Positions 22,462-30,965 of a stretch of 64,000 nucleotides of DNA are shown here, piece by piece. Origin of the DNA: Spiroplasma floricola 23-6 (GTDB lineage Bacteria; Bacillota_I; Bacilli_A; Mycoplasmatales; Mycoplasmataceae); the NCBI RefSeq assembly GCF_002813555.1, contig NZ_CP025057.1:124001-188000 (forward strand). Reading direction: 5' to 3'. Numbering within the stretch: the first letter of the stretch is position 1; each line of letters begins with the position of its first letter. The notes beneath the pieces were generated by a model that worked only from the letters and a program-made list of their open reading frames with translations, made no database searches and had not been told where the DNA came from. The position numbers and the translations under genes were made by a program.

Positions 22462-23464
22462 TTTAGACAACGAAAAAAACATTATTGATCAACAAAATAA
22501 TGTTGAAGTTGAAAAAGAATTAGACGACATTGAAAACATTGAATCTGAAGGAACAGAAATAGAAATAGAAGTACCAAAAATTAAATTTAAAGATAAAGTA
22601 GCTGATTTTAAAATAGTAAAAGGACTTAAAGGAAAAGTTTGACCTATATTATTGCCTTTTATGGTAGTTATGGGATTTTTAGTTGTGCTTCCTTTATTAG
22701 GAATTATTATATTCTCAATTGTTGAAGCAACAGGCAATAGTATAAAATTTAAATTAGATTTTTCAAATTTTGTAAATCTTTTAACATCAGGATCTATTCT
22801 TTATGTCTTATTTTTATCTTTACTTTATGCTTTTGTTGCAAGCATAATTTGTGTAGCTTGTGCATATCCAATAGCTTTGATTATGGCACAATTGAAAAAT
22901 AAAATGCTTGCAAAAAATGTATGAGTGTTAGTAACTTTGCCAATTTGAATAAGTATGATTTTAAAAATACTTGGACTTAGAAGTTTATTTCTATTAATTT
23001 CTCCAAGTGCTTTAGGAACTCCAATTGCAGTCATTATAGGTATGGTTTATATGTTTTTACCTTTTGCCATATCTCCAATTTATAATGCAATTGAAAATCA
23101 AGATAGAAATTATTACTTGGCAGCACTTGATTTAAAAGCAAGTAAGTCAAAAGCTTTTTGACATACAACTTTTAGACAATCATTACCAGGAGTTTTTGCT
23201 GGATTTACTTTAGTTTTAATACAAGCAGCAACTTCTTTATTAATTGTTAGATATATGGGTGATGGAAAAATTAAATTAATAACTTCAATTATTGAGAACT
23301 ACTTCTTTAGAGGTACGGACTTTACATTTGGAGCAACTATAGCAATTGTTCTTGCATTACTTTTATTTGCAATTATGGGAATTATGAAATTAATTTCAAA
23401 TAAATTCGAAGTGAAAGGAGCATCAAAAAAATGAAAAAATTCTTCAAATCAAGTTACTTCTTAA
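22454..23464 (+). CDS. potB: Spermidine/putrescine ABC transporter permease PotB (336 aa)
   Basis: Integral-membrane permease with about six helices, preceded by an unusual acidic N-terminal tail of ~50 residues (many Glu/Asp/Asn). The EAA coupling loop is present as NYYLAALDLKASKSKAF, followed by RQSLPG. The ATG overlaps the potA stop region, so translation is coupled. The last 34 bases overlap potC. Typical PotB is about 280 residues, and the excess is the N-terminal tail. Confidence 0.9.
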
Positions 23465-26400
23465 TAATGATGGCATTTATTTATGTGCCAATAGCTGTTA
23501 TGATTGTTTTTTCATTTAATTCTGGAAATAGTACTAGTAGCTGAAGTGGATTTAGTTTAGCTTGATATTCAAAACTAGTTTCAAATTCACCATTTATGAA
23601 ATCAATAACAGTATCACTATTTGTTGCTATGGTATCAACATTAATATCACTGGTAATTGGAATGATGGCTGTTGTAGGACTTACAAAAATTAGAAAAAGA
23701 TCTGCAGATAATTGAGTAAGAATTGCAAATATTCCACTAGTTAATGCTGATGTAATTACAGCTGTAGGATTAATGTTATTATTTGTTCTTGCAGGGGTAA
23801 AGTTTGGAATAATAACTTTAATTGCAGCTCACGTTTCATTTAACGTGCCTTATGTAATTATTACAGTTCTTCCTTTTATGAATAGAATTGATAAAAACAT
23901 TCTTGAAGCATCAAAAGATCTTGGAGGAAATCAAAGACAAACTTTTTATAAAGTAGTTCTACCAATCTTAACTCCTTGTATAATTACTGCAGCTGCAATT
24001 TGTTTTGCAATGAGTTTTGATGATTTTATTATTTCTTATTTTACAGGTGGAGGACAAACAAACGTTTCTACTTTTATTTATACTGCAAAAAGAATGCAAC
24101 CCTATATTAATGCTTTTGGAACATTATTAGTAGCTTCAATTGTAGTTATTATTTTAATTTGAAATATAATCCAATTTTCTTTACAAAAATCAAAAGATGT
24201 TAAGTTACAAATTAAAAAAGGTGAATATAAAATTAAAACAATTAGTAAAATAGAAAATGAAATTAAATATTTAGAAAAATGTCTTTTAGCAGGAACAAAA
24301 ATAAAAAAATCTAGAAACTTAAAACTTTTAGCACAGTATAAATTACTAAAATTTCAATTAAAAATACTAAATAATAAAAATAATAATAAAAAAATTAGTA
24401 AATTAGAATGAAAAAAAGCAATTATCGCTGATGAAATTAGAAGTGAAAAAAGATATTTTACTGTATTTAAAAAATTGAATATTAAAAAATCTCAAATTGA
24501 ATTAAAAATCTCAAAAATGACTAGTGAGAAAAAAATTAAAAAATTTAATCAGGTTTTATTAAAATTAGATCAAAAAATTAATAAATATGAAAAAGAGATA
24601 GAATGAATCAACAATAGAAATGAACACGATAAAGAAAGAGCTTTAGAAATTGGACAAGAAATTATTGATTTAAGAGAAGAGTTGGAGATATTAGATAATC
24701 CAAGCTCTAAATTAATTTCTTGATATAATAAAAAAATTAAAACTCTTTCAATTAAAAGAGATCGATTATTAGAAGGAAGAAATCAATATAAATTAAGAAC
24801 TACTATTGAAAAACTTGCTTTAATGCAAAAAGAAAATACTGAAAAAAGTGATGCAAAATATGAACAATATAAAACAGTTAAAGAAAAAGTATTTAAAAAA
24901 GTTTCAATTGTGGAATTAATAGATAAACAAATAGAACTTTTAAATAAAGAAGATGTTAATTACGAAATAAAATTAAAAGAATTGCAAACTTTAAGAGAAA
25001 CTAAATTAAAAGATGCAATAGAAAAACTAAACTCTAAATTAACTATAAAAGAAGAAAAACTTGAGAAAGTTAATAATTATGTAAAAGCTAAAAAAGATAA
25101 ATATTTCCCAGATGTTTTGGAAGAAAATTATGTTCCAAAATCAAATAAATGAATTAAAAGAAACTGAAAACAACTTACAATGGGAACAGCTATTTTAACA
25201 TCATTTTCTTTATTAACAACAGCATATATAATGAACAATATTTATGATTTGGTTATTGGAAATTGAGGAAGCTATATTGATGTTAATTTAATTACAAAAT
25301 TTGAAAAAGAATATGGCTATAAAGTCAATTATCAACAATATGATTCAAATGAGTCATTATATAATAAAACTTACACATTTAATTATGACATTATGGTTCC
25401 AAGTGACTATATGGTTCAAAAATTGGCAACTGAGGGTGGTTTACAAAAAATTAATTGATGTAAAGTAGATAAAATTGTAACATCAGAATCTAAAAGATTA
25501 GGTAATTGTGATGATCCAAAAGTTCCACCAGTTGGAGAAAGATTAACTTATGATAAAACTTTAGAAGAAGCTCATCAAAATTACAAATTTAAGGATATAA
25601 ATGGTGAACATGTTAATTTAATAGATTATTCAATTCCCTGATTTTGAGGAGATGTAAGAATTGTCTTTAATCTAGCAGATTATAAAAATGGAAATTTTGT
25701 ATTTAACGAAAAACTACGCAATTTTCTTTTAGAAAGTAATTTAATTAAAAAAGGTGAAACTGTAAATGAACCATATGAAGTTATTGAAGAACAATTATCA
25801 TGAGATATACTTTGACAAGCAGCAGCGCAAGGATTTAATTTAGCTTTAAATGAAGATCCAAAAAATGTATTTATGTATGGTTTTCAAAAATTATATGGAA
25901 CAGTTGAAGCAAAAGCTGATTTAAAAGTTGGCAATAAAGTGATTAGTAAACAACAACAAATAGATCAAGTTTCAAAAGAAATTGAAAAACTTGTAGGTTA
26001 TAAAAATGTGGGATTATATGGAGATGAATTAATTGATAAAGTTCATGACAAAGATTTTGATATTGCAGTTATGTATAACGGAGATTTAATTTATGCCAAC
26101 CAAGATGATTATGAAAGTGAAAAGGAAAGTGAAGATGATGTACTTGCCTATAGTGATGAAAAAAAAGCAGAAGACTTTAAATTTGCAATGATCTCTGGAG
26201 TTCCTGGAAAACTACTACCTCAAAGTGAGGATAAAAAAGTAACTATAGATAATAAAGTTAAAACAAATGAATCTACAAATTTATGAAGTGATAATTTAGT
26301 TATTTCAAGTACTAATAATCATTTAAAAGCTACTTATGATTTTATTAATTTTATGTATAATGTGGAATCACAAAAAGCTTTAATAGATGAAACAGGAATG

Positions 26401-26559
26401 CCTACTGGTTTTGAAGAAATGATAAAATATGGTAAAGAAAAGGGCAATGAATGAGAAAAATGATTCTCACCTCAAAAAGGAGATTCATTTAATTTTGATG
26501 AAAAAATGGACAATTATTTAGTAGATAAATATAATAAAATTATTTCAACTAAACATTAA
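23431..26559 (+). CDS. potCD: Fused PotC permease and PotD polyamine-binding protein (1042 aa)
   Basis: Two subunits in one chain. Residues 1-250 are the PotC permease with six helices and the EAA loop (ILEASKDLGGNQRQTF). Residues ~255-570 are highly charged, Lys/Glu-rich and predicted coiled coil. A helix at about 580-602 returns the chain across the membrane. Residues ~610-1042 are the PotD-like binding domain (YDIMVPSDYMVQKL and IPWFWGD motifs). The fusion replaces a separate lipoprotein-anchored PotD. It is a known mollicute variant, but the coiled-coil linker is long here. GAAAGGAG at 23413 supports the ATG. A strong terminator follows. Confidence 0.92.
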
Positions 26560-27947: not shown

Positions 27948-28024
<77 letters not shown>

Positions 28025-28075: not shown

Positions 28076-28081
28076 TATAAT
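28076..28081 (+). promoter_or_regulatory. -10 box of the mgtA leader transcript
   Basis: TATAAT within ATATGTATAATAA, an extended -10 shared with the potA leader promoter. The 5' UTR before mgtA would be about 160 bases. Confidence 0.55.
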
Positions 28082-28098
28082 AAGATAGTTTAGAAATG

Positions 28099-28210
28099 AG
28101 GTGGTAAATATGAGTATTCCTTCCGTCGAACAGTTAAATATATTAATAAAAGAAAATACGGTAAGAAGTATTGCTAATTTGCCACCTATTTTTGTGTTGT
28201 CAAAATAGGT
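28099..28210 (+). promoter_or_regulatory. mgtA: Two-state RNA leader of mgtA
   Basis: Three segments can pair in two exclusive ways. AGGTGGTAAAT (28099-28109), which contains the leader ORF's ribosome binding site, is complementary to ATTTGCCACCT (28177-28187) with one G·U pair. The overlapping ACCTATTTT (28184-28192) is also perfectly complementary to AAAATAGGT (28202-28210), which is followed by TTTT. Either the leader's own start is masked, or a terminator-like hairpin forms before mgtA. Confidence 0.6.
28110..28208 (+). CDS. Leader peptide upstream of mgtA (32 aa)
   Basis: Short ORF beginning MSIPSVEQLN with a strong GAGGTGGT six bases upstream. It ends in a TAG located in the 3' arm of the terminator-like hairpin. 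Its length and place 39 bases before a Mg2+ pump recall the enterobacterial MgtL idea, but the peptide is unrelated in sequence. No domain is recognisable. Confidence 0.55.
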   Translation: MSIPSVEQLNILIKENTVRSIANLPPIFVLSK

Positions 28211-28247
28211 TTTAAAATTAGCTTTCATAAATAAGGAGAACGATGTT

Positions 28248-30965
28248 ATGAAAACTAATAAAAAAAAGTTAAATAATAATTATAATAATCAAATAGCAGA
28301 GTTTGTAAATTTGGATCAAACTCAGGCATTAAAAAAATTGGAAGTTTCAAGTTTTGGACTATCAGATACAGAAGTTGAAGCTCAAAAAAATAAATTCGGA
28401 AATAATAGTTTAAAAGAAAAAAAATTTAATTACATATTATCATTTTTTAGGTCACTTTTTAGTCCTTTCAATTTAATATTGATAGTAATTGATACTTTCA
28501 ACTTTTATAAATATGCAACAGCAAAAAATGATGATGGTATTCGTTCATTGGAACCATCAGATTTAGTTGCAGCATTACTTGTTTTAACTATGATTATAAT
28601 TAGTACAACAATATATTTTGTTCAAGAAATTAGATCATTTCATGTTATTAGAAAAATGACATATGAAAATAAACATACATCAAAAGTAGTTAGAAATATT
28701 GATTTTAAAGTTAAAGATATTGATAATGCAAATTCAATTAAATTAATTAAAGAGCATGAACAAATTGAAAACTCAGAACTTGTTCCAGGAGATTTAATTT
28801 ATGTTTCAAATGGAGATTTAATTCCTGCTGATGTAAAAGTTATTTGATCAAATAACTTATATTTGAATCAATCTTCTTTAACAGGAGAAGCATTTCCTGT
28901 TCAAAAGAAAATAACAAATGAAAAAGAAAGTTATTTAGAATATCAAAATATTTGTTATATGGGAACAGAAGTAGTTTCAGGTTCTGCATTATGTTTAGTA
29001 ACTCAAACAGGAGAAAAAACTTATTTTTCTGCAATTAATGATAAAGTTACAGAGAAAAGGGGAAAAAACTCTTTTGAAAAAGGAGTTGCAAGAATTACAC
29101 TATTGTTAATTTCATTTATGTTAGCAGTAACACCAATTGTTTTTTTAGTTTTTGGTCTAAGACCAGGAGAAATTGATGATAGATGATTTGCAGCTGCAAT
29201 GTTTGCAGTTTCAATTGCTGTTGGATTAACTCCAGAAATGTTACCAATAATAGTTACGGCTAATCTATCTAGAGGTTATTCAAAAATTAAAAAAGAAAAT
29301 GTTATTGTAAAAAATTTAAATGCTGTACAAAATATGGGAGCAATCGATATTTTATGTACAGATAAAACAGGAACAATAACAAGTGGAGAGATTAATTTAG
29401 ACCATGTATTTGATATTAAAAGTCAAAAAAATGAAATGATAGAACATATTTTATATTTAAATAGTTATTTCCAATCAGGATTTCAAAATCCAATAGACCA
29501 GGCTGTATTGCTTAGTAAAAAAATAAATGCACCAAATATTGATGAATATACAAAAGAATGAGAAATTCCTTTTGACTTTAAAAGAAAGATATTATCAGTA
29601 ATTTTATCTAAAAATAATGAAAAAGAAATTTTTACAAAAGGTGCAATTGAAGAAGTATTAAAAGTGTGTAACCGTATTTATATTAATGGCGATATTGTAA
29701 AAATTACTCAAGAACATATTGATAAAATAATCAAAAAAGCAGATGAGTATAATAACGATGGATTTAGAGTTATAGGAATAGCTCACAATCATTTAAAAGA
29801 TGAAGATGTTGAAGAGGAATTAGTATTTTATGGATTTGGTACATTTTTTGATGAACCAAAAAAAACCTCTAAAAAAATTATTAAAGAATTAGCTCAAAAA
29901 GGAATAGCAACAAAAGTTCTTACAGGAGACAATGAAGTTATCACAAGAGCTATTTGTGGAAAAGTAGATTTTAAAATTGAAAAACTTTATACTGGAAAAG
30001 AAATTGAAGAAATGAATGAACACCAATTGCACAAAGCAGTTCTTAGAGGAAATGTATTTGTTAAATTAAGTCCGATTCATAAATCAACAATAATCAGAGC
30101 TTTAAAAGAACAAGGTCATGTTGTTGGATTTATGGGTGACGGAATTAATGATGCTCCAGTTTTAAGAGAATCTGATGTTGCAATATCTTTTGATGAAGCA
30201 TCAAATATTGCAAAAGAAGCAGCAGATATTATTTTAATGGAAGAATCATTGTTGCCAATTAGCCATGCAGTTCATGAAGGAAGAGTATCGTTAGCAAACA
30301 TATTAAAATATATTAAAGTTACAATTGCTTCAAACTTTGGAAATGTTTTAAGTGTTCTTGTTGCATTATTTTTAACAATGGCAGAACCAATGCAACCATT
30401 ACATTTACTTACACAAAATTTATTATATGACATAGTAATGTTTGCCTTTATCTTTGATAAAGTTGATAAAAAATTTACAGATAAACCAAGACCATTAAGA
30501 ACAAAAAACATTATATGATTTACAGTTATAAATGGTCCAGTTAGTTCAATATTTGATATTTCAACTTTCTTAGTATTGTTATATGGATACCATATTGTTC
30601 AACCAGGAATTGGTTCAGGAGTTGGAAAACCAGATCCTGCAGCATTAGCTGTATTTAATGGTAGCTGATTTGTTGTAGGATTGATGACTCAAACTGCAGT
30701 AATGCAAATGTATAGAACTGAAAAAATTCCATTTATTCAATCAAATGGTTCATGACAAGTTTCTGCATCAACAGTTCTTGTTTGTTCATTAGCTGTAATA
30801 GTTCCTTATGGATTTATGAGCATTCCTGCTGTTAGTGAAGGTATGGGAATGGGTGTTCCACCATTAACATTTTTACCAATTGCCTTATCATTTGTAGTAG
30901 CATATATGTTCTTAGCACAAGGAGTAAAAATGCTTTACATTAAAAAATTTAAAGAATGATTATAA
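28248..30965 (+). CDS. mgtA: Magnesium-translocating P-type ATPase MgtA (905 aa)
   Basis: P3B-type Mg2+ importer. The N-terminal domain (residues 1-60) is followed by the first helix pair, the actuator SLTGEAFP, the phosphorylation site DKTGTITSGE with D372, and the hinge GFMGDGINDAP. The segment VGLTPEMLPIIV in M4 and the C-terminal six helices are typical of MgtA/MgtB and distinguish it from Ca2+ pumps. AAGGAG at 28233 supports the ATG. The complex leader suggests control by intracellular Mg2+ or translation. A terminator overlaps the stop region. Confidence 0.93.

Follow-up and report, generated by a model that had tools for sequence, protein, structure and literature searches.

The mgtA gene of the wall-less mollicute Spiroplasma floricola 23-6 raises the question of whether production of a magnesium pump is governed by the short leader that precedes it and, if so, in which direction. 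The gene is found on the forward strand at positions 28248-30965 of the window, by which we mean the whole 64-kb stretch of DNA that was studied, taken from a genome of 1.28 Mb on one contig. It encodes a Mg2+-translocating P-type ATPase of 905 amino acids, which in a profile search scored 843 bits with TIGR01524 (cut-off 611), and since its frame contains seven TGA codons for tryptophan it is read in genetic code 4. A contig scan of genomes gave Spiroplasma sp. TIUS-1 as a named close relative, with 68% identity in MgtA.

Genomic setting and leader ORF

In the 5' to 3' direction, the locus consists of a tRNA cluster that ends at 28024, an intrinsic terminator (28041 onwards), a TATAAT box, the leader and mgtA. 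Further upstream, a single frame at 23431-26559 carries an ABC permease domain and a solute-binding domain linked by a long coiled-coil-like stretch, and looks, on reading, like a spermidine/putrescine PotC-PotD-like fusion. The genome encodes one MgtE and EF-P, while neither CorA nor a covariance-model match to the M-box (RF00380) was found in it. A low-threshold Rfam scan placed no family over the leader, the region returning only tRNAs and chance matches, which agrees with the earlier note's view that no M-box fold is visible. Across the whole genome nothing scored above the TIGR00767 cut-off for Rho, the top score being 50.6 bits against 509; two weak Rho matches, in adjacent frames of 454-471 codons, were rejected as probable ATP synthase subunits.

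The leader has its own candidate promoter, a forward-strand -10 box TATAAT at 28076-28081 that is conserved in family loci. An exact TATAAT lies 30-40 nt 5' of the leader ATG in 40 of 44 of these loci, against 8% by chance, so that the transcript very probably begins 5' of the first pairing segment described below, with a likely start at about 28088. A start downstream of 28110, which the earlier note regarded as fatal to its proposal, is thus not what the conserved box points to. A sigma-70 scan that included -35 boxes did not detect this promoter, whereas the TATAAT-only test did; the promoters of Mesoplasma florum consist of TAWAAT plus an extended element (PMC7745072).

The leader ORF, MSIPSVEQLNILIKENTVRSIANLPPIFVLSK, runs on the forward strand from 28110 to 28208 and has 32 codons, beginning MSIPSVEQ and ending at a TAG stop (28206-28208). 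Its start, with proline at residue 4, is kept in the genus and the nearest sister genera (MSIPS, MNIPL, MAIPS), and among close relatives all indels within it are multiples of three, which gives it the appearance of a translated frame. No sequence similarity to MgtL was found, as had been noted earlier. In 20 of 22 groups at least one proline falls within residues 2-16 (p 2e-8, uncorrected for relatedness), and aspartate, glutamate and proline are about three times denser there than in the later residues. The leaders of sister genera carry early motifs such as DNPEP, TPEPEP, DFPDPES and SPES; in the peptide of the window the early proline and acidic residues are Pro4 and Glu7 only, and acidic residues are few overall. 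Codon 5 (28122-28124, forward strand) is the rare serine codon TCC, and an early TCC is conserved across groups, being present within codons 2-17 in 20 of 22 of them, though it makes up 1.3% of serine codons as counted within the 64-kb window. The sole tRNA-Ser found within the window has the anticodon TGA, so that slow decoding of TCC is possible; alternatively, the early TCC could provide a further pairing, of UCCUU with AAGGA of the mgtA Shine-Dalgarno (SD) sequence.

Two mutually exclusive pairings, conserved in the family

Segment A, AGGTGGTAAAT (28099-28109, forward strand), comprises the SD sequence of the leader and its spacer, and pairs with segment B, ATTTGCCACCT (28177-28187, forward strand), within the late leader codons. 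The helix was described in the earlier note, and its 11 contiguous pairs, one of them G-U, are found exactly there. It dominates the minimum-energy fold of the RNA from 28088 to 28247 (z = -2.0), and its duplex energy of -16.5 kcal/mol was equalled in 0 of 300 shuffles (z -4.8), with a mean z of -3.0 over 49 leaders, related sequences included. Of the 32 short ORFs of the window that follow an SD, this one has the strongest such pairing (mean -7.9, sd 3.4).

The competing structure consists of two parts. The tip is a helix of nine perfect pairs around the leader stop codon, formed between ACCTATTTT (28184-28192, forward strand) and segment C, AAAATAGGT (28202-28210, forward strand). Beneath it lies an outer stem, P1, that is absent from the earlier note, in which eight pairs join GCTAATTT (28173-28180) to AAATTAGC (28215-28222), both on the forward strand, and close the hairpin tipped by B/C. 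As P1 encloses B/C, the fold that competes with A-B is a single long hairpin from 28173 to 28222 with the leader stop inside. A-B and P1 have the four nucleotides 28177-28180 in common, which prevents the two from forming completely at the same time, and their arms overlap or abut across leaders.

Both structures are preserved in relatives. A comparison of eight close relatives shows pairing in 88 of 88 A-B cells (100%): segment A is fixed, five positions of B switch only between Watson-Crick and wobble (G-U) pairs, and the pairing is kept even where the peptide changes from LPPIF to LSLFF. Two-sided changes in this helix appear at larger evolutionary distance. With 16 leaders aligned to one register, pairing is seen in 136 of 144 A-B cells, compared with 108 +/- 5 when B is exchanged between species with no account taken of phylogeny. 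A variety of pairs occurs at positions 4, 6, 7, 8 and 9, with AU, UA, GC and GU all used. P1 is paired in 64 of 64 cells (100%) in eight relatives, and B/C in 91.5% of cells in close relatives, where two of its pairs show two-sided changes; this tip is kept only in part in the group L008-L010. The earlier proposal hinged on covariation of A, B and C in relatives, and such covariation is present. In a species-swap permutation with one leader per divergent group (n=17), in which phylogeny is ignored, native A-B pairing gave -13.6 against -10.8 +/- 0.5 and P1 gave -13.0 against -7.7 +/- 0.7, with 0 of 20000 permutations reaching the native value in either case. The swap test and the register pairing together mean that the helices are kept although peptide and spacer diverge. 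We judge it highly probable that the leader is a real, conserved attenuator, and with both folds preserved across the family a genuine on/off switch for the pump is very probable.

Leaders that combine an SD, an ORF and an A-B helix are found ahead of mgtA throughout the family. Of 60 family genomes, 59 have a match to MgtA; some of the genomes we take to be those of Mesoplasma florum L1 and the Mycoplasma mycoides group, and upstream regions were examined for one or a few mgtA copies per genome. In almost every group, both of the genus and of several sister genera, the mgtA copy nearest to the query has in front of it a leader ORF with an SD of the type GAGGTG(A/G)T. By the criteria used, no leader was found at some paralogues and genera (for example L031, L042, L044, L052, L053, L063 and L069-L073), and a comparable leader is absent at six mgtA loci of non-mollicute Bacilli. 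A literature search, with most subscription journals outside its coverage, gave no description of an mgtA leader from Spiroplasma or from mollicutes.

Were the leader ORF a small gene in its own right, with A-B serving only to autoregulate it and mgtA uncontrolled, it would be expected that A-B covers the leader's own SD, as it does; such a gene is nonetheless very improbable, in that the RNA pairings outlast a peptide that becomes unrecognisable from one genus to the next, the leader always lies directly before mgtA, and P1 extends into the mgtA spacer. An RNA that senses metal directly, with A-B and P1 abutting and crossing to form, in some species, an H-type pseudoknot of Mg2+-dependent stability and the ORF secondary, also appears improbable, if less extremely so. 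The order of A, P1 5' arm, B and P1 3' arm would permit it in L012, L015 and L017, where the arms do not overlap, but they overlap in most species, including that of the window, so that both cannot form fully. Moreover, no conserved unpaired nucleotides of a ligand-binding type were seen, the ORF start and early proline are conserved, and there is no Rfam match.

Proposed polarity and output of the switch

We consider it reasonably probable that this stretch attenuates mgtA in cis through translation of the leader ORF, with A-B as the OFF state and a ribosome at the leader start as the ON state. In the nascent RNA, A-B, which joins the leader SD to late leader codons, would compete with P1-B/C, which joins late codons to the spacer ahead of mgtA. 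Where the leader start is not occupied by a ribosome, A-B would form once B leaves the RNA polymerase, shutting the leader SD and leaving a helix followed by a U-rich stretch; the 3' arm of P1 would stay unpaired and, in some relatives, may then cover the mgtA SD. A ribosome that initiates, or pauses within the first codons, would instead cover A and let B pair with the spacer, whereupon mgtA would be transcribed and translated. The conserved Pro4 with the rare TCC of Ser5, or the D/E-P motifs of sister genera, are the candidate sites of pausing or abortion through which the signal may be sensed, and that signal is presumably Mg2+, given the identity of the gene as a Mg2+ ATPase. The earlier note's proposal that leader translation selects the fold fits the mutually exclusive pairings with the leader SD and the in-frame indels, from which we infer the choice itself.

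The assignment of A-B as the OFF state follows from two features, namely a U-rich stretch that is found after B and not after P1, and a freed P1 arm that masks the mgtA SD in some species. Immediately after B is the sequence ATTTTT (28188-28193, forward strand), a possible termination point of the A-B hairpin. Across the family, the 10 nt after the B core contain 5.9 T, compared with 3.7 for leader positions chosen at random (0 of 5000), the maximum lying exactly there, which fits an A-B terminator. The hairpin is of an unusual kind for this role, with a loop of about 67 nt and a tract of 5 U only, and a pattern scan for GC-rich, short-loop intrinsic terminators gave none in the leader; part of the U tract is alternatively able to pair with the A-rich stretch preceding the SD.

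The opposite polarity, which goes with the terminator-like hairpin of the earlier note and resembles MgtL, has efficient translation of the leader covering A so that B/C-P1 acts as a terminator or barrier and switches mgtA off, while in an untranslated leader A-B forms, the leader SD is locked and mgtA is on. It would have the same sign as MgtL, where completed leader translation represses (PMC11282234), and in the window B/C is indeed a perfect 9-bp hairpin followed by TTTT. We regard it as rather unlikely, since B/C is partly lost in L008-L010, the U tract lies behind B with none behind P1 in most species, and, where the mgtA SD is masked, it is P1 that engages the anti-SD arm. Of the terminator-like hairpin in the earlier note, then, the pairing, its nine pairs and the enclosed stop stand; a terminator role for B/C is less supported, the U run behind P1-B/C being weak and the U-rich stretch following B.

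In our preferred reading, with A-B as OFF, a second output would be access to the mgtA SD. The spacer closes this SD beyond shuffles in 7 of 22 groups, and as the closing sequence is located in or beside the P1 3' arm, formation of P1 would open it. When the leader start is blocked, the SD is predicted to be more open in several groups, among them L012 (0.41 to 0.91), L013 (0.01 to 0.59) and L017 (0.28 to 0.80); in the group L024-L026 it is predicted to close instead, and in the M. florum-like group covering the leader start is not predicted to open it. Sequestration of the SD by the spacer was not significant in the swap test (1124 of 20000). It was rejected as a universal output, because in the window's clade the SD (AAGGAG, 28233-28238, forward strand) is predicted to be accessible, at 0.81 unpaired, in every state of the leader; the output there would thus be termination or something unseen.

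Known magnesium leaders and other mollicutes

The logic of the element resembles that of Salmonella mgtQ and mgtL, yet it is a separate, Rho-free design unlike the known magnesium switches, and the parallel is functional, not homologous. In Salmonella mgtQ, competing pairings, 1:2 with 3:4 versus 2:3, have been shown by experiment, and in E. coli and Salmonella early acidic and proline codons abort translation in low Mg2+ (PMC11282234; for mgtQ, PMC8092293). The mgtQ-mgtB attenuator (PMC8092293) is similar in having a short ORF, with proline at codon 4, before the gene for a Mg2+ P-type ATPase, in the competition of pairing 1:2 with 2:3, and in that early ribosome trouble frees region 2, as in the model proposed here. 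Its region 3 masks the transporter SD, as in 7 of the 22 relative groups, whereas in the window's clade the SD is unmasked. It differs in that mgtQ is an 8-codon ORF inside an operon with region 1 within the ORF, while here region 1 is the leader's own SD, and in having no sequence relation to the Spiroplasma leader.

MgtL of Salmonella and E. coli (PMC11282234) is likewise a leader ORF directly upstream of mgtA, and has an EPDP-like motif of early proline and acidic codons that destabilises ribosomes and is resembled here by the early motifs in the leaders of sister genera; it works through Rho, for which the host genome has nothing above the cut-off. The M-box (RF00380) also serves Mg2+ transporter genes in Bacillota, whereas the Spiroplasma element needs an ORF instead. 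With no Rho above the cut-off and no M-box detected in the genome, both the Rho-dependent MgtL mechanism and the M-box drop out as explanations. To our knowledge, MgtL does not use late leader codons to close its own SD. The mgtM and mgtP leaders of the mgtCBR operon (PMC3641672) share proline-codon ORFs, alternative stem-loops and a Mg2+ transporter operon, but are two tandem, enterobacterial ORFs that respond to ATP and proline. Within the Bacillota, the vmlR leader of Bacillus subtilis also combines transcription and translation attenuation, but senses antibiotics and belongs to another gene class (PMC9226507).

In further mollicute families, mgtA is preceded by leader ORFs that differ in sequence. 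One family (L096-L099, L108, L131, L132) has leaders of the type MELQSSER, whose early codons can pair with the spacer (for example GAGCGA with UCGCUC) as an alternative to a CUCCU/AGGAG hairpin formed at the mgtA SD, which would be a similar switch laid out differently. A third family (L087, L102, L103, L111, L138-L149) has leader ORFs such as LDVHLNESS, MDPWSC and MGQEPYDEF, some starting with TTG, and in L147 a perfect A-B-like helix joins GGTGGTTTTTCAT to ATGAAAACCACC. A second group of mgtA paralogues (L051, L056, L058, L059) has leaders beginning MLGQQEQSG, with a long SD-pairing segment, GATAATCACC, near or beyond the leader stop.

Tentatively, mollicutes, with neither a recognisable Rho nor an M-box here, may have evolved a translation-based Mg2+ sensor independently of the enterobacteria, one that couples pausing or abortion in low Mg2+ to a switch arm made of the leader's own SD and that is used family-wide. 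That early proline, acidic or rare codons would be the points of pausing or abortion in such a sensor is a suggestion we put forward with similar reserve. If true, it would show how Mg2+ uptake is regulated in bacteria with almost no transcription factors, and would represent a second, Rho-free and apparently convergent case of Mg2+ sensing via the translating ribosome. Its use across the family would apparently include Mesoplasma florum and the Mycoplasma mycoides group, the source of the minimal cell, and a natural regulated leader would thus be available in organisms that are used as near-minimal cells.
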